Under the pieces are notes generated by a model. That model did not search any database and was not told the DNA's origin. It was given only the letters and a program-made list of their open reading frames with translations. The position numbers and the translations under genes were made by a program. A stretch of DNA of 10,336 nucleotides from Betaproteobacteria bacterium (GTDB lineage Bacteria; Pseudomonadota; Gammaproteobacteria; Burkholderiales; Burkholderiaceae_D), in assembly GCA_015655165.1 (NCBI GenBank), contig JAATFN010000131.1, positions 1-10,336 of the forward strand, in the 5' to 3' direction. This document shows, one piece after another, positions 149 to 10,336 of the stretch (its first letter is position 1; each line of letters opens with the position of its first letter).

Positions 149-520
149 CTATTTCCGCATTGACATATTGATATAGATTTGTTCATCTTTGATGCTAACA
201 GGCCAAGATCTAACACAGGTATCCTTGTATTCTATGCATTGTCCAGTAACAAGAGAGAAATGCTGCTTGTACATTGGCGATGCGACAACCCACTCACCAG
301 CCATATCACCGACAATTCCCCTTGAGAGTACATTGGCGTGGCTAAACGGGTCATGATTATCAAATGCAAAGCACTCATTTTGCGTTCTGAACAAGGCAAT
401 TTGATAGCCGCTCAAGAAAATGCCGACGCCGGAAAATGGCGTAATATCCTGTAGCGAGCACACTATTTGCCAATTATCTTCATGCTGTATTGCTGCTGGA
501 GAAATTGTTGTCATATTCAT
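149..520 (-). CDS. nirD: Nitrite reductase (NADH) small subunit NirD
   Basis: Encodes a 123-residue protein matching the NirD small subunit, the partner of NirB in cytoplasmic six-electron reduction of nitrite to ammonium. The fold is Rieske-like. Recognisable stretches are WQIVCSLQDI near residue 17, FAFDNHDPFSHANVLSRGIV at about 51-70 and VASPMYKQHFSLVTGQC at about 78-94. The Cys/His pairs that bind a [2Fe-2S] cluster in true Rieske proteins are missing, as in other NirD subunits, so the role is structural. The length is close to the usual ~105-120. The start is set by the ATGA overlap with the nirB stop (4 bases shared), which implies translational coupling. An in-frame ATG two codons later is a possible alternative. 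No clear terminator follows the stop. Confidence 0.93.
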   Translation of the reverse strand: MNMTTISPAAIQHEDNWQIVCSLQDITPFSGVGIFLSGYQIALFRTQNECFAFDNHDPFSHANVLSRGIVGDMAGEWVVASPMYKQHFSLVTGQCIEYKDTCVRSWPVSIKDEQIYINMSMRK

Positions 521-3099
521 GCGCTCTCTTTCTCTGTTATTACGTCAATATGCAGCTGCTTTTCTGTCAGTGTGGCCGGGCGTGGTTGATCACGTTCACG
601 GAAATGGATAATGTTTTCGTCGATCTGTTGCGCATCATTGATAAATGTCCGAAACCGTTTCAACGCTTGTTTATCTTCAAGTGTACGTTTCCATTCACAG
701 ACGTAATTGTCAACTAATGACTGCATCTGGTGTTCCAGCTCTTCGGCAAGACCTAAAGAATCATCCAGTACAACTGCCTTCAAATAATCAAGCCCGCCTT
801 CAAGATTTTCTCGCCACACGGATGTGCGTTGCAAGCGATCGGCCGTACGAATATAAAACATCAAAAAACGGTCGATATACTGGACTAGCTGTTGACTATT
901 GATATTGGCAGCCAATAATTCAGCATGACGTGGTCGCATACCACCGTTGCCGCAAACATAAAGATTCCAGCCCTGATCTGTTGCAATAATCCCGATATCT
1001 TTGCTTTGTGCTTCAGCACATTCTCTTGTACACCCTGAAACAGCCAACTTGAATTTATGTGGAGCACGTATGCCACGGTAACGTTGTTCTAGCGCGATCG
1101 CCATCCCTGTAGAATCCTGTACACCATAGCGGCACCATGTACTACCAACACAAGATTTGACGGTACGCATCGATTTCCCGTATGCATGTCCAGTTTCAAA
1201 ACCCGCATCTACCAGCGCATGCCAGATCAATGGCAACTGGTCTAGACGTGCACCAAACAGGTCAATACGCTGTCCACCAGTGATTTTGGTATATAGGTCA
1301 TATTTTTGCGCCACCTGGCCAATCACAATCAGTTTTTCCGGTGTGATTTCTCCGCCAGGAATACGGGGTACAACAGAATAAGTGCCATCTTTTTGTAAAT
1401 TGGCGAGAAAAGCATCATTCGTATCTTGCAAGGTTGCATTCTGTTTTTCCAGAACATAATCATTCCAACATGAAGCCAGGATAGATGCAGTTACCGGTTT
1501 ACAGATATCACAACCATATCCTTTACCAAAACGTGCGAGCAAAGTATCAAAATCGTGAATACGATTGACACGAATTAAATGATACAGTTCTTGTCTACTA
1601 TAGGCGAAGTGCTCGCAGACATGATTGTTAACGATAATGCCCTGGCTTTTTAGTTTGGCTTCCAGCACTTGCTTGACAAGTGCCGAACATCCGCCACAGA
1701 CAGCACTAGCACGTGTTTCCACTTTAAGCATGGCAACAGTCGTACAACCTCGCTCCACGGCAGCACATAAATCACCTTTACTAACATTGCTACAGGAACA
1801 TATTTGTGCTGTATCGGGTAAAGCATCGACGCCGAGTGACGGTTTTTCTGTATCAGACGGCAGAATTAATGCACTGGGGTTTTCTGGTAACGTCATTGCA
1901 TTCAGATAATATTGCAACAGCATACCGTAGTCGCTTGTATCACCAACCAGTATTGCTCCCAATAGATGCTTGCCATCAGCATCAATCACCAGTTTTTTGT
2001 AAATACCTTTAATATTATCTTCGTAAATACATGTGCGACAACCAGGTGTTTTTCCTAGCGCATCACCGATTGAACCAACCTCGACACCCAACAGTTTAAG
2101 TTTGGTACTCATATCCGCACCGTCAAACGACACATCCTCCTGCCCGCCAAGATGTGCAGCACATGTACGCGCCATGTCGTAGCCTGGAGCGACCAAACCA
2201 AAAATCATATTATTCCAGCATGCAGCTTCACCAATAGCATACATATCAGGGTCTGATGTCTGACAGTAATCATTGATGACAATCCCCCCTCGTACACCTA
2301 CTGTCAGGCCAGCATCCTTTGCCAGAGCATCATGGGGCCGAATACCTGCGGAGAATACAACCAGATCAGTATCGAGATGGCTACCATCGGCAAAAAGCAG
2401 ACGGTAACGTGAAACATCTCCCGGAACAATGGCTGTGGTTACTTTATTGGTGTGCACATCAACACCGAGCGCTTCGATTTTTTCACGCAACAGCCGGCCC
2501 CCGCCACTATCTAGTTGGACTGCCATCAAATGGGAAGAAAATTCGACAACATGTGTTTTAAGATTCAGGTCCCGTAATGCCCGTGCCGCTTCCAGCCCAA
2601 GTAGACCACCACCAATGACAACACCGGTATGGCTTGATGTCGCCGAATGTCGAATAGCATCAAGATCTTCTATCGTACGATACGCATGACAGAAATCCTG
2701 ATCGTTACCTGGAATCGGCGGTACAAATGCATAAGAACCTGTTGCAAAAACAAGCTTGTCATAGCTTATTTCGACACCGGCTGCACTTTTTACGCAGCGT
2801 GTCTCCCGATCCACTTGCACAACCGGATCACCACAAAACAACGCAATATTGTGCTCATCAAAAAACTGCTCTGTTACCAAAGACAAATCATCTGCCCCGG
2901 TATGACTAAAATAACTTGTCAGATGGACGCGGTCATATGCCAATCTGGACTCGCCACAAAACACACTAATCTGGTAGCGATGTGATTGTCCAACCAACGT
3001 TTCCAGCAATTGTTGTCCAACCATACCGTGACCAATCACAACCAGTCGCGGTAATGGCTGTGTGACTATAGGCGATGCATTATTATCCGATGCATGCAT
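517..3099 (-). CDS. nirB: Nitrite reductase (NADH) large subunit NirB
   Basis: An 860-residue sirohaem nitrite reductase large subunit, full length for the family (~840-860), acting in the cytoplasm. An FAD site GHGMVG lies at residues 23-28 and an NAD(P)H site GGGLLG near 161. A BFD-type [2Fe-2S] domain begins with CSC near residue 432 and closes with CGGC near 468. A second BFD-like segment follows, running from CEH to GCDIC. The sulfite/nitrite reductase core carries the [4Fe-4S]-sirohaem cysteines as C-x5-C (Cys650, Cys656) and C-x3-C (Cys690, Cys694). All expected cofactor ligands are present. The ATG at 3099 has AGGAG 8 bases upstream (3112-3108). With nirD it forms a two-gene operon. 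The leader points to an assimilatory rather than respiratory role, since it has an RpoN promoter and an antitermination-type leader. An nasB-like name is equally valid. Confidence 0.96.
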   Translation of the reverse strand: MHASDNNASPIVTQPLPRLVVIGHGMVGQQLLETLVGQSHRYQISVFCGESRLAYDRVHLTSYFSHTGADDLSLVTEQFFDEHNIALFCGDPVVQVDRETRCVKSAAGVEISYDKLVFATGSYAFVPPIPGNDQDFCHAYRTIEDLDAIRHSATSSHTGVVIGGGLLGLEAARALRDLNLKTHVVEFSSHLMAVQLDSGGGRLLREKIEALGVDVHTNKVTTAIVPGDVSRYRLLFADGSHLDTDLVVFSAGIRPHDALAKDAGLTVGVRGGIVINDYCQTSDPDMYAIGEAACWNNMIFGLVAPGYDMARTCAAHLGGQEDVSFDGADMSTKLKLLGVEVGSIGDALGKTPGCRTCIYEDNIKGIYKKLVIDADGKHLLGAILVGDTSDYGMLLQYYLNAMTLPENPSALILPSDTEKPSLGVDALPDTAQICSCSNVSKGDLCAAVERGCTTVAMLKVETRASAVCGGCSALVKQVLEAKLKSQGIIVNNHVCEHFAYSRQELYHLIRVNRIHDFDTLLARFGKGYGCDICKPVTASILASCWNDYVLEKQNATLQDTNDAFLANLQKDGTYSVVPRIPGGEITPEKLIVIGQVAQKYDLYTKITGGQRIDLFGARLDQLPLIWHALVDAGFETGHAYGKSMRTVKSCVGSTWCRYGVQDSTGMAIALEQRYRGIRAPHKFKLAVSGCTRECAEAQSKDIGIIATDQGWNLYVCGNGGMRPRHAELLAANINSQQLVQYIDRFLMFYIRTADRLQRTSVWRENLEGGLDYLKAVVLDDSLGLAEELEHQMQSLVDNYVCEWKRTLEDKQALKRFRTFINDAQQIDENIIHFRERDQPRPATLTEKQLHIDVITEKESA

Positions 3100-3132: not shown

Positions 3133-3176
3133 AAAAAAAGGCGCTCACTCCACAATATTGTGAAGTGAGCGCCTTT
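3133..3176 (-). terminator. Intrinsic terminator in the nirB leader
   Basis: A perfect 13-bp inverted repeat (AAAGGCGCTCACT, 3176-3164, against 3149-3137) continues, past one mismatch, into CAC/GTG closing loop AATATT. On the minus strand the 3' arm runs into seven T residues (3139-3133), so this is a strong rho-independent terminator reading towards nirB. It lies only 33 bases before the nirB ATG, inside the transcript from the sigma-54 promoter, so it must be bypassed for expression. It would also stop read-through from msrPQ. Confidence 0.92.
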
Positions 3177-3180
3177 GCTC
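3167..3180 (-). promoter_or_regulatory. Leader hairpin P2 (antiterminator), ANTAR-type hexaloop
   Basis: GAGC (3180-3177) pairs with GCUC (3170-3167) around the hexaloop AAAGGC (3176-3171), which again has A at 1 and G at 4 and matches the P1 loop at five of six positions. The loop plus 3' arm (3176-3167) are the first ten bases of the terminator 5' arm, so P2 and the terminator cannot form together. This is the expected arrangement for ANTAR antitermination: bound protein stabilises P2 and releases nirBD transcription. The 31-base linker from P1 is longer than usual and holds a further small hairpin (UUGAU/AUCAG, loop GCAGCU). Confidence 0.68.
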
Positions 3181-3211
3181 TGATAGCTGCATCAATTCTC
3201 TATTACATCCA

Positions 3212-3235
3212 TACATTATCGCCATTGATAACGTA
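3212..3235 (-). promoter_or_regulatory. Leader hairpin P1, ANTAR-type hexaloop
   Basis: In the nirB leader RNA, bases 3235-3227 pair with 3220-3212 in a 9-bp stem containing one G-U pair, closing a six-base loop AAUGGC (3226-3221). A at loop position 1 and G at position 4 are the conserved residues of RNA hairpins bound by ANTAR proteins such as NasR, NasT and EutV. It begins about 15 bases after the predicted transcription start. Confidence 0.7.
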
Positions 3236-3261
3236 ACCGATATAATTATTCCTCAATACTA

Positions 3262-3465: not shown

Positions 3466-4101
3466 TTATCTGTGCTTGTGACCTAACCAAGTTACAATAC
3501 GTATCCCCAATAACATCGTAATAACAACAGTAAACAATATCGGTTCGAATACGAGATTTTTACCTGCTTTCGCCCACCAGAAATGAACTAAAGCTAATGG
3601 AGCAGCCAAATAAACCAAACGGTGGAGCAGTTGCCAACGCCGCCCTCCCAAAAGACGCATCATTGTGCTCCAGCTAGTTATTGCCAACGGAATCAGTAAT
3701 ATAAAAGCTGCCAATCCGACAGCGACAAACGGACGTGTCATCACATCTTGCCAGATTGCTTGCAGATCGAAGAAATGTTCGAACCATATAAAAGCCGTGA
3801 AATGCAGGCATAAATAAAAAAACGACATCAACCCCAGCATGCGACGCATCCTGGCAAGCCAATGCCATCCTGTAAAGTGACGAATCGGTGTCACCGCTAA
3901 CGCAATACACAGTAAATACAATGCCCAGTTTCCGGTATCGCGGGTAATAAATTCAACCGGATTGGCTCCCAAGCCGCCATTACTGCCTAAAATGATCAGA
4001 CGTAAAAATGGTACACATGCGAGTAACAGAAAACAAAACCACAACCCTTGTGTCTGCTGGAATGATAAGGTTTTAAAAGGTAGCTGCATCGAATATCGCA
4101 T
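3466..4101 (-). CDS. msrQ: MsrQ haem membrane subunit of periplasmic methionine sulfoxide reductase (YedZ)
   Basis: A 211-residue inner-membrane protein of the ferric-reductase-like transmembrane family. It passes electrons from the quinone pool or flavin reductase through b haem to MsrP. Six hydrophobic segments are visible, at about residues 18-38, 54-70, 88-108, 122-142, 160-178 and 187-204. Histidines suited to haem ligation sit in HFTGWHW, in LCLHFTAF and in LHRLVYL...ALVHFWW. The length matches the family (~200-215). Its ATG shares one base with the msrP stop (TAATG), so the pair is translationally coupled. An internal ATG at codon 5 is an alternative start. Confidence 0.93.
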   Translation of the reverse strand: MRYSMQLPFKTLSFQQTQGLWFCFLLLACVPFLRLIILGSNGGLGANPVEFITRDTGNWALYLLCIALAVTPIRHFTGWHWLARMRRMLGLMSFFYLCLHFTAFIWFEHFFDLQAIWQDVMTRPFVAVGLAAFILLIPLAITSWSTMMRLLGGRRWQLLHRLVYLAAPLALVHFWWAKAGKNLVFEPILFTVVITMLLGIRIVTWLGHKHR

Positions 4102-5149: not shown

Positions 5150-7006
5150 TTATCTCGTATGGGTTGTTATAGATTCTGTCAACTGATCGTTAAACTGGAA
5201 ATGGGCTTCCAGAATCGTACCTTCATTTGAAGACCTTATCTTGAAATTGCCCCCCAGTTTTTGGACTCTTGCCATCATGCTTTGCATACCGATCCCAATA
5301 CAAGCGGCAGTTATTTGCTTCGCATCAAATCCGATTCCATCGTCGCCGATGGTAACGGATAAGGTTTCATCATTGGCATCTTTATGTGTATGGAGCTCAA
5401 ACCAAACCTGTGAAGCATGGCTATGCTTGATGACATTGGTCAATCCCTCTTCAACAAAGCGCGTTAATTCGATGAGTTTAGCTTGTGTCCATGATTGTGG
5501 CCATAGTGCTGCAACCGACCAGGATGATTGCATTGATAGTTCTTCAAATATATGGGTAAATCTGTGCCTGATCGGTACAATCCATTGTGCAGGCGTGTCT
5601 TTTACCAACTGTGAAGAGTGGCCACTGTTATCGATGACTTGACGCAAATCGTCCCGAATCGATTTCAAAATCGACAGGTAATGCTTTCTTTCAAGATGCG
5701 CTTGCGTTTGTTCGACAAGCGTAATTGACCTCACCAGTGAGCTACCGAAGCCATCATGCAAATCTCTGGCAATTTGCAAACGTTCTTTTAACAATGCATT
5801 TTGCATCTCCAATGCATGCTCTCTTTGCAACGTGTCGGTAAGCTGTACTCTTGTTTCATCTATCGTTATTTTCAAGTCATCTGCAGCGTATTCGATTTTT
5901 TTGATATTGCGTACAAATACCCAGGCAAGCATTAAAGACATGAATACCATGCCAACCAATCCGGACAGCGCGACATACAAAAAATCAGCATGGATCATCT
6001 GCAGCATAACCAATGTTGTATGTACACCAATCACCAGATAAAACAGCAAAGTTACCGCCAGAAGCGTATCTTCTGTTCGACGTACTTTCCATGCATAAAA
6101 CTGGTACAAGATACAATTCCCAAAGAAAACAAGCGTAAAAATCGTACCTGATAGCGCCAGCATATGGATTTGCCATGCCTTTGGTAATACGAGCAAGAAC
6201 ACGACTGATACCGTCGTCAGAAAAAACAGCAATTTTTCCAGTTTCGGGTAATGGCATTGCCCAAAACGCCAGGTAAAAATACAAAAGCAGGCGGTATACA
6301 GGACAAATGCAATGGAATTGAAGACACTCACATCCAGCGAATTACTAAATGGCCAGGTGCTTGTTGCCAATACGTTATAGCCGAATAGTACCCATAGGAT
6401 GCTCATTAAACCATACCAGCCAAACGCTTTTTCACGGCGCCGCATTATCCAGATCAAGAGACAGATACTACCGACTACGCCACTAATGACTTGATTGATC
6501 ATCCAAGCATATTTGTTCATCCAGATAGACCATGTATAAGCCACATCAATCGCCTGATTGTTCCCTGCCTGAACACGCCCCAATCCAGGTGCATGAAAGG
6601 CAAGACCAATTACCTGTATCCAAACGGTATTATTTTTTTCTTGTAGCAAAGCCGCGGGAATTTGCCAGTAACGTTGGGCATTCCAGCTGCGCGACAGTGG
6701 TTCGGTAAGTTGTTCATCGCGCCACAATGGTGTTTGATTGATCCAGACTGCACCGGCCATATTGATGCGTTCGACAAATAGTGCCGCATCTTGTGCATTC
6801 TGGCAGGATTCATCCAGATTCATGCGGTACCAGACAGTCCCGGTATAACCGGGCCATCGTTGTAGCCAGATATCCGGCAAGGTAACACTTACCCAGCCAG
6901 TCTCGGGGCGTACATTACTGTTATTGCCGGCTTTCGCTGCCACAATTGAACCCGGGACAATGGCACAAGACTTGGCCCAGGTAAAAACCGGAAACAAGAG
7001 TGTCAT
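5150..7006 (-). CDS. Membrane sensor histidine kinase, 7TM-DISM-like with HisKA_3 core
   Basis: A 618-residue kinase (from ATG 7006) expected to phosphorylate the adjacent NarL-type regulator. After a signal-like N-terminus there is a periplasmic beta-sandwich region of galactose-binding type (about residues 30-170, with TVWYRMNL and GAVWINQTPLW). About seven transmembrane segments follow (about 180-380), the layout of 7TMR-DISM receptors. A coiled-coil region leads to the HisKA_3 H-box ARDLHDGFGSS with phospho-acceptor His417. The ATPase domain has an N-box (EEGLTNVIKHSHAS, about 520-535), DDGIGFD near 557 and a following glycine-rich GIGMQSM stretch. The ligand is unknown. The ATG has no Shine-Dalgarno sequence. 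An upstream in-frame CTG at 7027 (or ATT at 7030) has GAGG in front and would add an Arg-containing n-region, giving 625 residues. The position before msrPQ suggests oxidative or chlorine-stress sensing. Confidence 0.9.
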   Translation of the reverse strand: MTLLFPVFTWAKSCAIVPGSIVAAKAGNNSNVRPETGWVSVTLPDIWLQRWPGYTGTVWYRMNLDESCQNAQDAALFVERINMAGAVWINQTPLWRDEQLTEPLSRSWNAQRYWQIPAALLQEKNNTVWIQVIGLAFHAPGLGRVQAGNNQAIDVAYTWSIWMNKYAWMINQVISGVVGSICLLIWIMRRREKAFGWYGLMSILWVLFGYNVLATSTWPFSNSLDVSVFNSIAFVLYTACFCIFTWRFGQCHYPKLEKLLFFLTTVSVVFLLVLPKAWQIHMLALSGTIFTLVFFGNCILYQFYAWKVRRTEDTLLAVTLLFYLVIGVHTTLVMLQMIHADFLYVALSGLVGMVFMSLMLAWVFVRNIKKIEYAADDLKITIDETRVQLTDTLQREHALEMQNALLKERLQIARDLHDGFGSSLVRSITLVEQTQAHLERKHYLSILKSIRDDLRQVIDNSGHSSQLVKDTPAQWIVPIRHRFTHIFEELSMQSSWSVAALWPQSWTQAKLIELTRFVEEGLTNVIKHSHASQVWFELHTHKDANDETLSVTIGDDGIGFDAKQITAACIGIGMQSMMARVQKLGGNFKIRSSNEGTILEAHFQFNDQLTESITTHTR

Positions 7007-7023
7007 GATAAAGATGAGCCGGA

Positions 7024-7743
7024 TCAGAATAATAAACCTCGCAAGCGTGCCTCGTTAATTGCTTTCGTGCGTGAAGATACAGATAGCTTTCGGTACATGT
7101 TCTTGACATGACATTCTACTGTGTACTTTGAGATGAACAGTGTTTCTGCAATTTCCCGGTTTGTCAGTCCATCGGCAACGAGATTCAAAATTTCTTTTTC
7201 CCGGTTACTTAATACCATCGCCACATCACTCTCCATGGCAGCAGATGTCGTCACATGAGTTTGCTGTTCGGCTTTAGAAGGAGTTGTGTCGATTAGCGAC
7301 AGGATATGGCGGGCAATGAACGGGTCGATTGGCGCCCCGCCCCGCAATGTACTTCTAATCGAGAGGATGACTTCCAGATCATCGCGCTCTTTTAATACAT
7401 AGCCGTTCGCACCGGCTTTCAACGCTTTTAAAATAATATCTTCGGTACTCCAGGCAGAAATGACCAGAATACTCATTGCCGGATCTGATGTACGTAGCTT
7501 GACGATCAGATCGATCCCGTTACCGTCTGGCAAGCCCAAATCAACCAATGCCATGGCAAATGGTTGATCTTCTATATATGCCGATGCTTGTGCCAAATCT
7601 CCCGCACATACCAATGCTTCATCGGTATACCCCAACTGATTCATTAAGCCATGCAACCGTTTTTGCATCAGCATATCGTCTTCAACGATTAATACCGGTG
7701 CGGGAAGAATCAGATTGCTTGCATTCTGTATGATGTTTGACAT
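7024..7743 (-). CDS. NarL/FixJ-family response regulator
   Basis: A 239-residue cytoplasmic DNA-binding regulator. The receiver domain (about residues 15-135) has acidic VEDD at 20-23, phospho-acceptor Asp68 in LVDLGLPDG, the switch Ser in VISAW and the conserved Lys in VLKERDD. A LuxR-type helix-turn-helix occupies about 178-236, with LSNREKEIL, LTNREIAETLFIS and VECHVKNMYRKL. An open frame runs upstream to a TTG at 7827, but that would add 28 residues before a normal receiver start. The ATG at 7743 is preceded by GAGAGA and gives the usual domain layout. It is followed by the kinase gene with a 17-base gap, or a CTGA overlap if the kinase uses CTG. Likely targets are its own promoter and msrPQ, which is inference from position. 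Confidence 0.92.
   Translation of the reverse strand: MSNIIQNASNLILPAPVLIVEDDMLMQKRLHGLMNQLGYTDEALVCAGDLAQASAYIEDQPFAMALVDLGLPDGNGIDLIVKLRTSDPAMSILVISAWSTEDIILKALKAGANGYVLKERDDLEVILSIRSTLRGGAPIDPFIARHILSLIDTTPSKAEQQTHVTTSAAMESDVAMVLSNREKEILNLVADGLTNREIAETLFISKYTVECHVKNMYRKLSVSSRTKAINEARLRGLLF
7027..7040 (-). promoter_or_regulatory. Candidate ribosome site and non-ATG start for the histidine kinase
   Basis: GAGG (7040-7037) lies 9 bases before an in-frame CTG (7027-7025), which overlaps the regulator stop TGA (7026-7024) as CTGA. An ATT at 7030 is 6 bases from GAGG. The annotated ATG at 7006 has no comparable site. Starting at CTG adds the residues IRLIFI after the initiator, completing a signal peptide with a positive n-region. 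Confidence 0.45.
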
Positions 7744-7984
7744 GCGTCTCTCTAATTCATTAGCACAATTGAATTGATGCAGTACTGCAGATTGGATTGA
7801 TCCGGTATAAGTACTACACAGTAGCAATAACGCTATAGTAGGATAAAACTGCCCTCATTTGATATATCCCTCTCAAAATACCAGTTTTCAGGTATGCCCG
7901 CTTTACAGCGATATTTGTACAATCAGTGACATAGACACGGTTAAAACTATATGACAGCACGTTATCCTAAAGAGGGAATCACTG
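7744..7984. other. Divergent intergenic region between the response regulator and luxE-like genes
   Basis: These 241 bases must carry both divergent promoters. A perfect 12-bp palindrome TGCAGTACTGCA lies at 7778-7789, a second AGTACT core at 7810-7815 with an overlapping CTAC-ACA-GTAG inverted repeat (7814-7824), and ATACC-N8-GGTAT at 7878-7895. A weak sigma-70 candidate for the plus-strand genes is GTGACA (7926-7931), a 16-base spacer and TATATG (7948-7953). No clear promoter was found for the regulator. Confidence 0.5.
7926..7953 (+). promoter_or_regulatory. Weak candidate sigma-70 promoter for the luxE-luxC pair
   Basis: GTGACA matches the -35 consensus at five of six positions. TATATG matches the -10 at four of six, with a short 16-base spacer. 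It is 31 bases before the luxE-like ATG. It is plausible by place but not strong by sequence. Confidence 0.3.
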
Positions 7985-9109
7985 ATGCCATCCGCATCCA
8001 TCCAACAATGTTGCAATATTCGCACACCCTATGCAGCAAGCAATGACCATGATTTTATCAATGCCATGCGTGATATTGTGCGCTGGCATGAAGAACGCTG
8101 TGACTGGTACAAACAGTTTTTACAACAGCACCATATTGTTAGTGCGTCGTTATTAACGCTGGACGACATCATCAATATTCCGCCTGTCCATGCCAATTTC
8201 TTCAAATACCATCAGGTCACATCCGTACCCCAAAATAATATTGTCGCGCATCTGACATCGTCAGGAACCACCGGGCAGAAATCACAAATGTTTTTTGATG
8301 CATTCACAATGGAGTCGGCGCGTCGCATGGTTGATGATTGCATGGCAGCACGCGGTACTATTAGTCCATATCCGGCCAATTATCTGGTCAATGCCTATGA
8401 ACCCTATCCAGGCTTTAAGGTTGGTACATCCAACACCAACCAATATCTGATGCGCTATGCCACACCGTCAAAAACGTTTTGGACATTACGGGCTATCGGT
8501 GATGGCAAACATGAATTCGATATTTTTGGTGCATTGGCGGCTCTTCAGTCCTATGCGCAAAGTGATATACCGGCACGCATTATCGGTTTTCCTGCATTTT
8601 TGCATTTCATCATCGAACGTATGCAACAAATGCAACTGGCGCCGATAAAATTGCCATACGACAGTTGGGTGATCTTTGGTGGAGGCTGGAAAGGTCATGC
8701 AGACAAAGCGATATCGCGCGTTGAACTAGCCAACAATATCCAACATTGGTTAGGCATTCATCCCGACCATATCGTCGAAACTTTTGGTGCAGTGGAACAC
8801 TGTATTCCTTATGTGGGGTGCACACATCAGCATTTACATGTTCCAGTCTGGTCTAAAGTGGTCATTCGTGATGTAAAAACCTTGCAAGCCATAGGTTACG
8901 AAAAATCAGGTTTTCTTTCTTTTATTTCTCCTTATATTACTTCCGTGCCAGCACACAGTGTCGTGATGGGAGATCTGGCAATACTGCATCCACCAGGTAG
9001 CTGTGATTGTGGCAATACGTCAGCATGGTTTGAAGTGTTAGGACGTGCCGGCACCTCTACAAATAAAAGCTGTGCAGCAGCAGCATCAGAATTACTGTCT
9101 AAATCATAA
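7985..9109 (+). CDS. luxE: LuxE-type acyl-protein synthetase
   Basis: A 374-residue protein of the LuxE family (usually ~370-380), related to ANL adenylating enzymes. In luminous bacteria LuxE uses ATP to activate a fatty acid, holds it as a thioester on a C-terminal cysteine, and hands it to LuxC. The adenylate motif SSGTTGQKS is present (SGTTG at 93-97). Further family-like stretches are VIFGGGWKGH near 227-236, ETFGAVEHC near 264-272 and CDCGNTSAWFEVLGR near 338-352. Cys363, eleven residues from the end, matches the acylated cysteine near position 364 of characterised LuxE. The ATG is preceded by GAGGG (7972-7976) at 8 bases. A luxC-like gene follows after 45 bases, so the pair is an operon. 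The true substrate may differ from the tetradecanoate of luminous species. Confidence 0.88.
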   Translation: MPSASIQQCCNIRTPYAASNDHDFINAMRDIVRWHEERCDWYKQFLQQHHIVSASLLTLDDIINIPPVHANFFKYHQVTSVPQNNIVAHLTSSGTTGQKSQMFFDAFTMESARRMVDDCMAARGTISPYPANYLVNAYEPYPGFKVGTSNTNQYLMRYATPSKTFWTLRAIGDGKHEFDIFGALAALQSYAQSDIPARIIGFPAFLHFIIERMQQMQLAPIKLPYDSWVIFGGGWKGHADKAISRVELANNIQHWLGIHPDHIVETFGAVEHCIPYVGCTHQHLHVPVWSKVVIRDVKTLQAIGYEKSGFLSFISPYITSVPAHSVVMGDLAILHPPGSCDCGNTSAWFEVLGRAGTSTNKSCAAAASELLSKS

Positions 9110-9154
9110 CTGGCTACAGACACATTGTCTGCCCTATTTTATCGAGGTTTCATC

Positions 9155-10336
9155 GTGTTAATTCCTCATTCTGACAACGAACGCACCCACTTATGGTTCG
9201 GTGAATCTGTTGATAACCTGAATATACAATTTCATATTGGACAGTTGCGTGACCATCTGGACAATACACTGGTCAAACAGTTTTCAATCGATCATCTGCT
9301 GCGTGCATGCAAGGCTCTATCAGACGACATTGCACAAGAAGACAATGCATTTTTGCAACTGGTCGAGCAAGCGGCCATGGCTGTTGGCGACAAAGCAGCA
9401 CAAAGCGTCGTACACAGTTTGGCTACCATGTTAAAACCCGAATTCTTGCAAACAAAACTGCAATGTGAGCTAGGAACAAGTACGCCAGGCATTCTTGAAC
9501 GACGCTATCCGGAAAGACAATACGAAGCATGGTTGCCAGCCGGTTGTATTGTTCATGTCATGCCATCCAATGTACTCATTGCTGCTGCGATGGGGTTATT
9601 GGAAAGCTTATTGCTAGGTAATATCAACATCGTTAAAGTGGGTGCACGCGATACTGGCTTTACATCTGTATTTGCACGATTATTGATTGCACACGACAGT
9701 AGTGGCCAACTCAAAGACTACATCGCTGTATTACATCTATCATCACAGCATCAAACTGTTTTCAAACAATTATTCCAGCATGCCGATATCATTTCCGCAT
9801 GGGGTGGCGAAGCTGCGATTACAGCAGTCAAACAGCATGCGCCTGCTAGCGCCAAGGTGATTGCGTGGGGACACAAAGTCTCTTTCGGTTATATCGCCAA
9901 CCGATGTATCGATGATCAATCGGTAATTGATGCATTTGCACGCGATATCTGCCGGCTCGACCAACAGGCGTGTTCAAGCCCGCAAACATTACTTGTAGAA
10001 ATTGAAGAACAAGAAAATTTAATGGCTTTTGCACAGCGCATGGCCGAAGCACTAACACGTATTTCACCAACAATTGATCGAACGGTGCCAGATGTATCAG
10101 AACAAGCGGAAATCACGACAACCTTGAGCGTGGCACGCGCGGAAAAAGCATTGGGTTTAACCGATTTGATCGAGGATCCGAATGGTCAATGGCGCATTCT
10201 GGTTGACTATCGACTTGGCTTAAGCCCTTCTCCGCTTTATCGGACAATCTGGATCAAACCGGTGCAACGCAATCGACTAAGCCAATCATTACGTCCGATG
10301 CGCCAATGGTTGCAGACATGTGGTTTAGCTGCCGAC
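9155..10336 (+). CDS. luxC: LuxC-type fatty acyl reductase, C-terminus outside the window
   Basis: The first 394 codons of a LuxC-family reductase (family length ~480), open to the window edge without a stop. LuxC is an aldehyde-dehydrogenase-like enzyme that takes the acyl group from LuxE and reduces it with NADPH to a fatty aldehyde. Family features are WLPAGCIVHVMPSNV near 127-141, followed by LLGNINIVKVGARD, then AWGGEAAI and WGHKVSFGYI, and the catalytic cysteine Cys273 in DQQACSSPQ. The start is a GTG at 9155 with GAGG (9144-9147) seven bases upstream; no ATG is available nearby. It is co-directional with the luxE-like gene 45 bases upstream. The cut at 10336 is the window edge, not evidence of truncation. 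Confidence 0.88.
   Translation, partial: MLIPHSDNERTHLWFGESVDNLNIQFHIGQLRDHLDNTLVKQFSIDHLLRACKALSDDIAQEDNAFLQLVEQAAMAVGDKAAQSVVHSLATMLKPEFLQTKLQCELGTSTPGILERRYPERQYEAWLPAGCIVHVMPSNVLIAAAMGLLESLLLGNINIVKVGARDTGFTSVFARLLIAHDSSGQLKDYIAVLHLSSQHQTVFKQLFQHADIISAWGGEAAITAVKQHAPASAKVIAWGHKVSFGYIANRCIDDQSVIDAFARDICRLDQQACSSPQTLLVEIEEQENLMAFAQRMAEALTRISPTIDRTVPDVSEQAEITTTLSVARAEKALGLTDLIEDPNGQWRILVDYRLGLSPSPLYRTIWIKPVQRNRLSQSLRPMRQWLQTCGLAAD

Follow-up and report, generated by a model that had tools for sequence, protein, structure and literature searches.

How is the transcription of the nitrite reductase genes nirBD controlled in this bacterium, and does the RNA ahead of nirB take part in the control? 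The window (the whole stretch of 10,336 nucleotides analyzed here) carries nirBD on its minus strand. Both genes score over the NCBIfam cut-offs, and they represent nitrate/nitrite assimilation targets, as in the NasR regulon. Between msrQ (end 3466) and nirB (start 3099), the same strand holds a sigma-54 type element, two hairpins referred to as P1 and P2, a terminator, and a possible ribosome-binding site (Table 1). This RNA region at nirBD is very probably an ANTAR antitermination leader, and probably of the NasR type.

Table 1. Positions of the promoter-like elements, leader hairpins, and nirBD genes in the window.
Feature	Position	Strand	Description
Candidate NtrC enhancer half-site TGGTGC	3364-3357	minus	TGGTGCGT; assigned by consensus
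Candidate NtrC enhancer half-site TGGTGC	3344-3337	minus	TGGTGCAT; assigned by consensus
Sigma-54 type -24/-12 promoter TGGCAC-N5-TTGCT	3276-3261	minus	TGGCACAATGATTGCT; assigned by consensus
Antiterminator hairpin P1	3235-3212	minus	UACGUUAUC[AAUGGC]GAUAAUGUA; 9-bp stem; hexaloop 3226-3221
Antiterminator hairpin P2	3180-3167	minus	GAGC[AAAGGC]GCUC; 4-bp stem; hexaloop 3176-3171
Intrinsic terminator	3176-3133	minus	18 perfect pairs 3176-3137, 4-nt loop, then U7 to 3133
Possible ribosome-binding site	3113-3106	minus	CAGGAGTC; upstream of nirB ATG 3099
nirB, NADH nitrite reductase large subunit	517..3099	minus	860 aa; TIGR02374 and NF011565 over cut-off; ATG 3099
nirD, nitrite reductase small subunit	149..520	minus	123 aa; overlaps nirB stop; TIGR02378 over cut-off

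The hexaloops of P1 and P2 each have an A at position 1 (A1) and a G at position 4 (G4), and the two hairpins given in the preliminary description of this DNA are correct to the base. Together, the loop and the 3' arm of P2 coincide exactly with the ten bases that open the 5' arm of the terminator. P2 and the terminator are mutually exclusive, as had been claimed, because these ten bases are common to both. With 9 and 4 bp, the stems of P1 and P2 reach the at least 3 bp required for an ANTAR dual-hexaloop RNA. In folding, the leader piece ending at P2 forms P1 and P2 (-27.1 kcal/mol, z = -4.1). The leader including the terminator folds at -55.8 kcal/mol (z = -8.6), and the terminator prevails when its 3' arm is present. 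In the predicted fold, P1 tops a longer imperfect stem (about 3259-3189); the spacing between P1 and P2 is 31 nt between the perfect stems and about 8 nt if the extended stem forms.

We scanned both strands of the window for pairs of A..G.. hexaloop hairpins in which the second hairpin overlaps a terminator, and the nirB leader is the single place found. Among dinucleotide-shuffled windows, 8/300 contain any match, and none of the 300 combines a P1 of at least 6 bp with a terminator of at least 12 bp. A relaxed scan of 141 records, both strands included, gives 127 matches; the records are the window, L001 (a copy of it), and loci, of which 30 were chosen for their ANTAR genes. The mononucleotide-shuffled control, with two copies per record and one strand, gives 2 matches in 2.79 Mb. 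The scan matches are not all true leaders; those of L097 and L100 look like chance. A strict scan of 109 loci, which demands a perfect terminator stem starting near P2 at most 750 nt from nirB, returns only L062 and a weak match in L139, the latter probably due to chance. The leaders of L061, L063, and L064 are missed by the strict scan and picked up by the relaxed one, while L186 is missed by the relaxed scan because its P1 has one unpaired position.

Dual-hexaloop leaders of this kind have precedents. In Ramesh 2012 (PMC3369931), the ANTAR motif is defined by two hairpins whose stems have at least 3 bp and whose hexaloops carry A1 and G4, P2 overlapping a terminator. In the same paper, EutV of E. 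faecalis depends on P1, P2, A1, G4, and linker length, the distance between P1 and P2 is 5-12 nt in the E. faecalis eut leaders, and nitrite reductase is among the genes below predicted motifs. For nasF/NasR of Klebsiella oxytoca, that paper describes A1/G4 hexaloop hairpins and an intrinsic terminator, with nitrate-responsive read-through into nitrogen-assimilation genes (PMC3369931). The leader of the window falls within the published search definition and has a nitrogen gene downstream. It likewise has A1/G4 hexaloops and an intrinsic terminator, as nasF does, and a protein with NIT and ANTAR domains is present in leader-bearing relatives; the comparison with nasF covers its published description. 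The differences from the textbook cases are small: the position directly before nirB, the sequence of the P2 stem, and a possible extended P1 stem. Counted between perfect stems, the distance of 31 nt is longer than the 5-12 nt given for the eut leaders, and P1 may have an extended stem. In 22 burkholderial nirB leaders the linker is as a rule 39-58 nt long, and across all leaders besides that of the window the scan gives 1-58 nt. Since the mechanism is already known (Ramesh 2012, PMC3369931), we count the leader as an additional member, not as a new mechanism.

The closest NirB proteins to that of the window lie outside the host genus, which is probably Herbaspirillum. L061 (titled Alcanivorax sp. 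MAG) is 71% identical, L062, L063, and L064 (UBA2675 and two Pseudohongiella) are 67-69% identical, and L177, L178, L179, L180, L181, and L186 are 65-71% identical. In a FastTree phylogeny of 139 NirB sequences, the window and these ten loci form a clade with a support of 1.0, which includes none of the 23 genus members; the nodes next deeper are weakly supported (0.27 and 0.59). Eight of the ten clade relatives (L061-L064, L177, L179, L181, and L186, hereafter the eight relatives) carry the leader directly before nirB, and the 5.5-kb loci of L178 and L180 contain no such leader. With a NirB 65-71% identical to that of the window, the eight relatives share its promoter element, loops, terminator, and downstream gene. 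A1 and G4 of both hexaloops are kept in the window and in all eight aligned relatives. The hexaloops and the overlap with the terminator are maintained in the related nirB leaders, with compensatory changes. The P2 stem reads GRGC/GCYC in seven of the eight and AGGC/GCCU in L186.

We also notice that L062 (about 5390-5480, minus strand) has another hexaloop-terminator arrangement, which lies on the opposite strand and recurs at the corresponding places of L063 and L064. The one in L062 immediately precedes divergent ABC transporter genes of the nitrate-transporter type, so that leaders seem to face both ways.

The conservation extends to the promoter-like element. All nine aligned leaders (the window and the eight relatives) begin with TGGCAY-N5-TTGCT, a result that in L177, L179, L181, and L186 is partly by choice, because these leaders were first spotted through that element; in L061-L064, the leader was found before the element, and the alignments were cut from the element onward. 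Beyond it, the P1 loop follows at 45-63 nt and the P2 loop at 90-100 nt. By consensus, we take the element at 3276-3261 to be a sigma-54 type promoter and the TGGTGC half-sites at 3364-3337 to be candidate NtrC sites. Upstream of the sigma-54 site, such half-sites number two in the window, one each in L061, L062, and L063, and none in L064 (the four relatives checked). TGGTGCGT is also found upstream of this site in L061, L062, and L063, and not exactly in L064. The nasF gene of K. oxytoca has a sigma-54/NtrC promoter.

The terminator could alternatively be a mere end signal of an upstream transcript, with the hexaloops there by coincidence. Since msrQ lies on the same strand and its end at 3466 is 290 nt away from the terminator, its transcript could indeed reach it. 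However, the sigma-54 type element common to the relatives sits between msrQ and the terminator, and the hexaloops and stems are conserved and covary, which makes this explanation very improbable.

A translated leader peptide might govern the terminator instead, as in classical attenuation. A frame of 26 codons (MAIMYGCNRELMQLSEQRRSLHNIVE) starts within the P1 loop, with its ATG at 3225, and extends into the terminator, but this ATG is present in only two of the nine aligned leaders (the window and L061), the other P1 loops reading AACGGC, AAAGGC, or AACGAA. The frame also has no apparent run of regulatory codons. We rejected the peptide at ATG 3225 because its start is not conserved among the nine aligned leaders, and we give attenuation of this type next to no chance.

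For the antitermination leader itself, we built a covariance model, R1, from seven nirB leaders (L061, L177, L062, L063, L064, L181, and L186), excluding the window. L179 was omitted because MAFFT placed its P1 loop out of register, and R1 recovers it at 48.7 bits. On the window leader, R1 scores 48.2 bits (E 5.9e-9 in 283 kb), so the covariance search for the leader was successful with a model that had not seen it. Over the window's own genome, the leader has an E-value of 5.2e-8, and no second R1 target was found, since the next place has an E-value of 2.4 (150 of 255 first-look candidates scored). In a sample of 22 burkholderial loci, R1 reaches at most 20.8 bits (E 0.019), versus 48.2 for the window; the window leader is therefore of the gammaproteobacterial subtype. 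Among the loci tested, the best match outside the NirB clade (E 0.0021) is in L075, where some 4.4 kb separate it from nirB. An Rfam search matched no family, giving two matches only, both far below the gathering scores.

Aligning the orthologous nirB leaders revealed covariation in both the hairpins and the terminator of the seven relatives. For the antiterminator, 98.4% of 63 cells are paired, 9 cells are changed on both sides versus 3.3 in shuffles, and the covariation score is reached by none of 500 shuffles. The number of pairs changed on both sides is a less distinctive measure (reached by 35/500 shuffles), and further pair types are not distinctive (405/500). For the terminator, 92.4% of 119 cells are paired, with 15 cells changed on both sides versus 4.9 in shuffles; again no shuffle of 500 reaches the covariation score, and further pair types do not stand out (134/500). 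Pairs with changes on both sides number three in P1, one in P2, and eight in the terminator. When the partners are slid by 1 to 3 columns, the covariation score drops markedly every time. Because the seven leaders are few and related (L062 and L063 are near-identical), we treat these counts as supportive and not as independent events. R1, the conserved hexaloops, and the compensatory changes support the claim of the preliminary description that an ANTAR-type antitermination leader controls nirBD.

Which protein would read the leader? The preliminary description had predicted an ANTAR gene elsewhere in the genome. None has been found so far: in the own genome, whose assembly is 63.7% complete in 453 contigs, no ANTAR gene was detected with Pfam ANTAR (PF03861) or with a full-length NIT-ANTAR query, and no counterpart of the K. 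oxytoca protein NasR was found in this incomplete genome. The ANTAR search works, as it gives many matches in relatives despite none in 14 control genomes in any of the ANTAR searches. Of the 100 genomes searched, the own genome among them, 72 have the domain (PF03861), and so do 33/33 congeners. We do not take the missing gene as a refutation, because the assembly is 63.7% complete and all 33 congeners have an ANTAR gene, and we infer that an ANTAR protein is present in this organism.

In the genomes of all eight relatives, Pfam identifies a protein with both NIT and ANTAR domains. The preliminary description had invoked the logic of either NasR or NasT/NasS; this result supports the former and leaves NasS/NasT less favored. 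Seven of the eight carry the NIT-ANTAR gene and nirB on one contig, with the former some 4-7 kb upstream of the latter. The window, by contrast, extends 7.2 kb upstream of nirB and has other genes there, namely msrPQ, a two-component system, and a LuxE-like gene. In a 30-genome set, an ANTAR match at E 0.001 was found in 22 genomes and none in 8. Eight of the 30 have a NIT-ANTAR-sized protein (seven Pfam-confirmed; L223 was judged by length and sequence only). The leader is present in 5/8 genomes with such a protein versus 0/22 others (Fisher p 4e-4, relatedness not removed), and in 0/8 genomes without ANTAR. In a 20-genome set, 6/20 lack ANTAR, and R1 finds no match up to E 1 in their six loci.

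On the other hand, the same leader may be read by a receiver-ANTAR protein of the NasS/NasT kind. At the best ANTAR match, 20/33 congeners have an open reading frame of 195-265 residues (receiver-ANTAR size), versus 12/33 with 421-470 residues (NIT-ANTAR size, shown by Pfam in L058) and one with 326. If the leader arrived by transfer, the resident protein may be of the other kind. Against this stand the NIT-ANTAR proteins in 8/8 genomes bearing the leader type of the window and the co-occurrence in the 30-genome set, from which relatedness was not removed. We consider a receiver-ANTAR reader unlikely.

On the basis of these results, we propose with high confidence that nirBD undergoes nitrate/nitrite-dependent ANTAR antitermination, most likely by a NasR-type protein, on a sigma-54, probably NtrC-activated, promoter. 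Transcription of nirBD would be initiated near 3250 from this promoter, probably with NtrC as the activator. By default, RNA polymerase would halt at the terminator, just ahead of nirB. In the presence of nitrate or nitrite, both hexaloops would be bound by an ANTAR dimer; the protein is most likely a NIT-ANTAR protein of the NasR type whose gene lies elsewhere in the genome. The bound P2 would be stabilized and would withhold the first ten bases of the 5' arm of the terminator, allowing read-through into nirBD. Antitermination would thereby act on top of nitrogen-controlled initiation.

In Burkholderiales, the host genus included, dual-hexaloop leaders are common and belong to a subtype other than that of the window. 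A dual hexaloop overlapping a terminator is present in 24/29 nir/nas loci of this group (L002-L030), and 21 of these 24 belong to the 23 genus loci. Their P2 is mostly GGAC[AAnGGC], with linkers of 1-58 nt; the P2 stem is GGAC/GUCC in the genus versus GAGC/GCUC in the window. In 22 of the 24, the leader lies about 1.4 kb before nirB, and in two (L004 and L008) directly before it, like that of the window. By scan, L002-L030 have a leader at most 300 nt from nirB in 2/29, only farther upstream in 22/29, and none in 5/29. The corresponding counts are 26/80 (L061-L064 and 22 burkholderial loci), 25/80, and 29/80 for L061-L140, and 4/30, 0/30, and 26/30 for L177-L206. The position directly before nirB is thus not special to the gammaproteobacterial leader type, being found also in 22 burkholderial loci and two of the genus. 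A pair of distinct dual-hexaloop leaders, both upstream of nirB and on its strand, is present in L070, L079, L083, L085, L088, L107, L109, L114, L121, L129, and L135; L072 also has a second match, which looks like chance. Loci with two leaders hint at larger ANTAR regulons.

NirB of the window shares 61-63.5% identity with those of 23 congeners, whereas the congener proteins share at least 79.6% with each other. LysS, whose gene sits on a different contig of the own genome, shares 85-88% identity with its counterparts in 32/33 congeners (one without a match) and 74-84% in 7/8 genomes from other genera of the family (one without a match). For MsrP of the window, the best match is 67-76% identical in 31/33 congeners (two without a match); three further members of the family reach 68-72%, and the other families 54-65%. 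Because NirB and the leader are unlike those of the genus while LysS and MsrP are host-like, the comparison suggests that nirBD and the leader were acquired from a gammaproteobacterial lineage and now adjoin native genes. The segment 517-3276, with its gammaproteobacterial-type nirB and leader, would be a probable horizontal transfer of genes together with an RNA switch. The GC content of the window is 44.6%, close to the 45-50% in 18 readable stretches of the bin's other contigs and unlike the 56-65% of ten congener nirB loci. Contamination of the bin by this contig is unlikely, given this GC content near that of the bin and the MsrP identity in 31/33 congeners. A chimeric contig is possible.

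We speculate that nirBD, as a self-contained cassette with its sigma-54 promoter and ANTAR leader, passed to a Herbaspirillum-like host from a gammaproteobacterium, without the cognate NIT-ANTAR gene, and that a resident ANTAR protein now reads the foreign leader. This scenario is conceivable, though we lean against it.

The surroundings of nirBD provide further observations. Upstream of msrPQ, the span 5150-7827 encodes a 7TM-DISM sensor kinase and a receiver/LuxR-type response regulator, in the span that contains the NIT-ANTAR gene in seven leader-bearing relatives. This two-component pair is possibly a local regulator with a DNA-binding output. The span 7985-10336 contains a LuxE-like acyl-protein synthetase gene (Pfam LuxE over the cut-off, NCBIfam LuxE far below it), after which DNA of coding appearance runs to the end of the contig. 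Going by the usual pairing of such genes, this DNA may encode a LuxC-like reductase. With the nitrate reductase of L062 as the query, no enzyme of the NasA/NasC kind was found in the own genome (G000), where the search returned two short matches and, on C374, a molybdenum enzyme that is only distantly similar (27% identity). The assimilatory nitrate reductase is either missing or lost in the incomplete assembly.

Taken as a whole, the leader is a well-supported candidate for a nitrate-responsive antiterminator directly before nirBD, another case of a mechanism described before. R1 provides a covariance model for the gammaproteobacterial leader type, for which the Rfam search returned no family. 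Our findings suggest that a promoter, a leader, and a gene can travel jointly from one bacterial class to another, so that it becomes possible to test how specific ANTAR proteins are toward foreign leaders. If it is true, the cassette transfer would be a natural test of how few features an ANTAR domain requires in addition to A1, G4, and the closing C-G pair.
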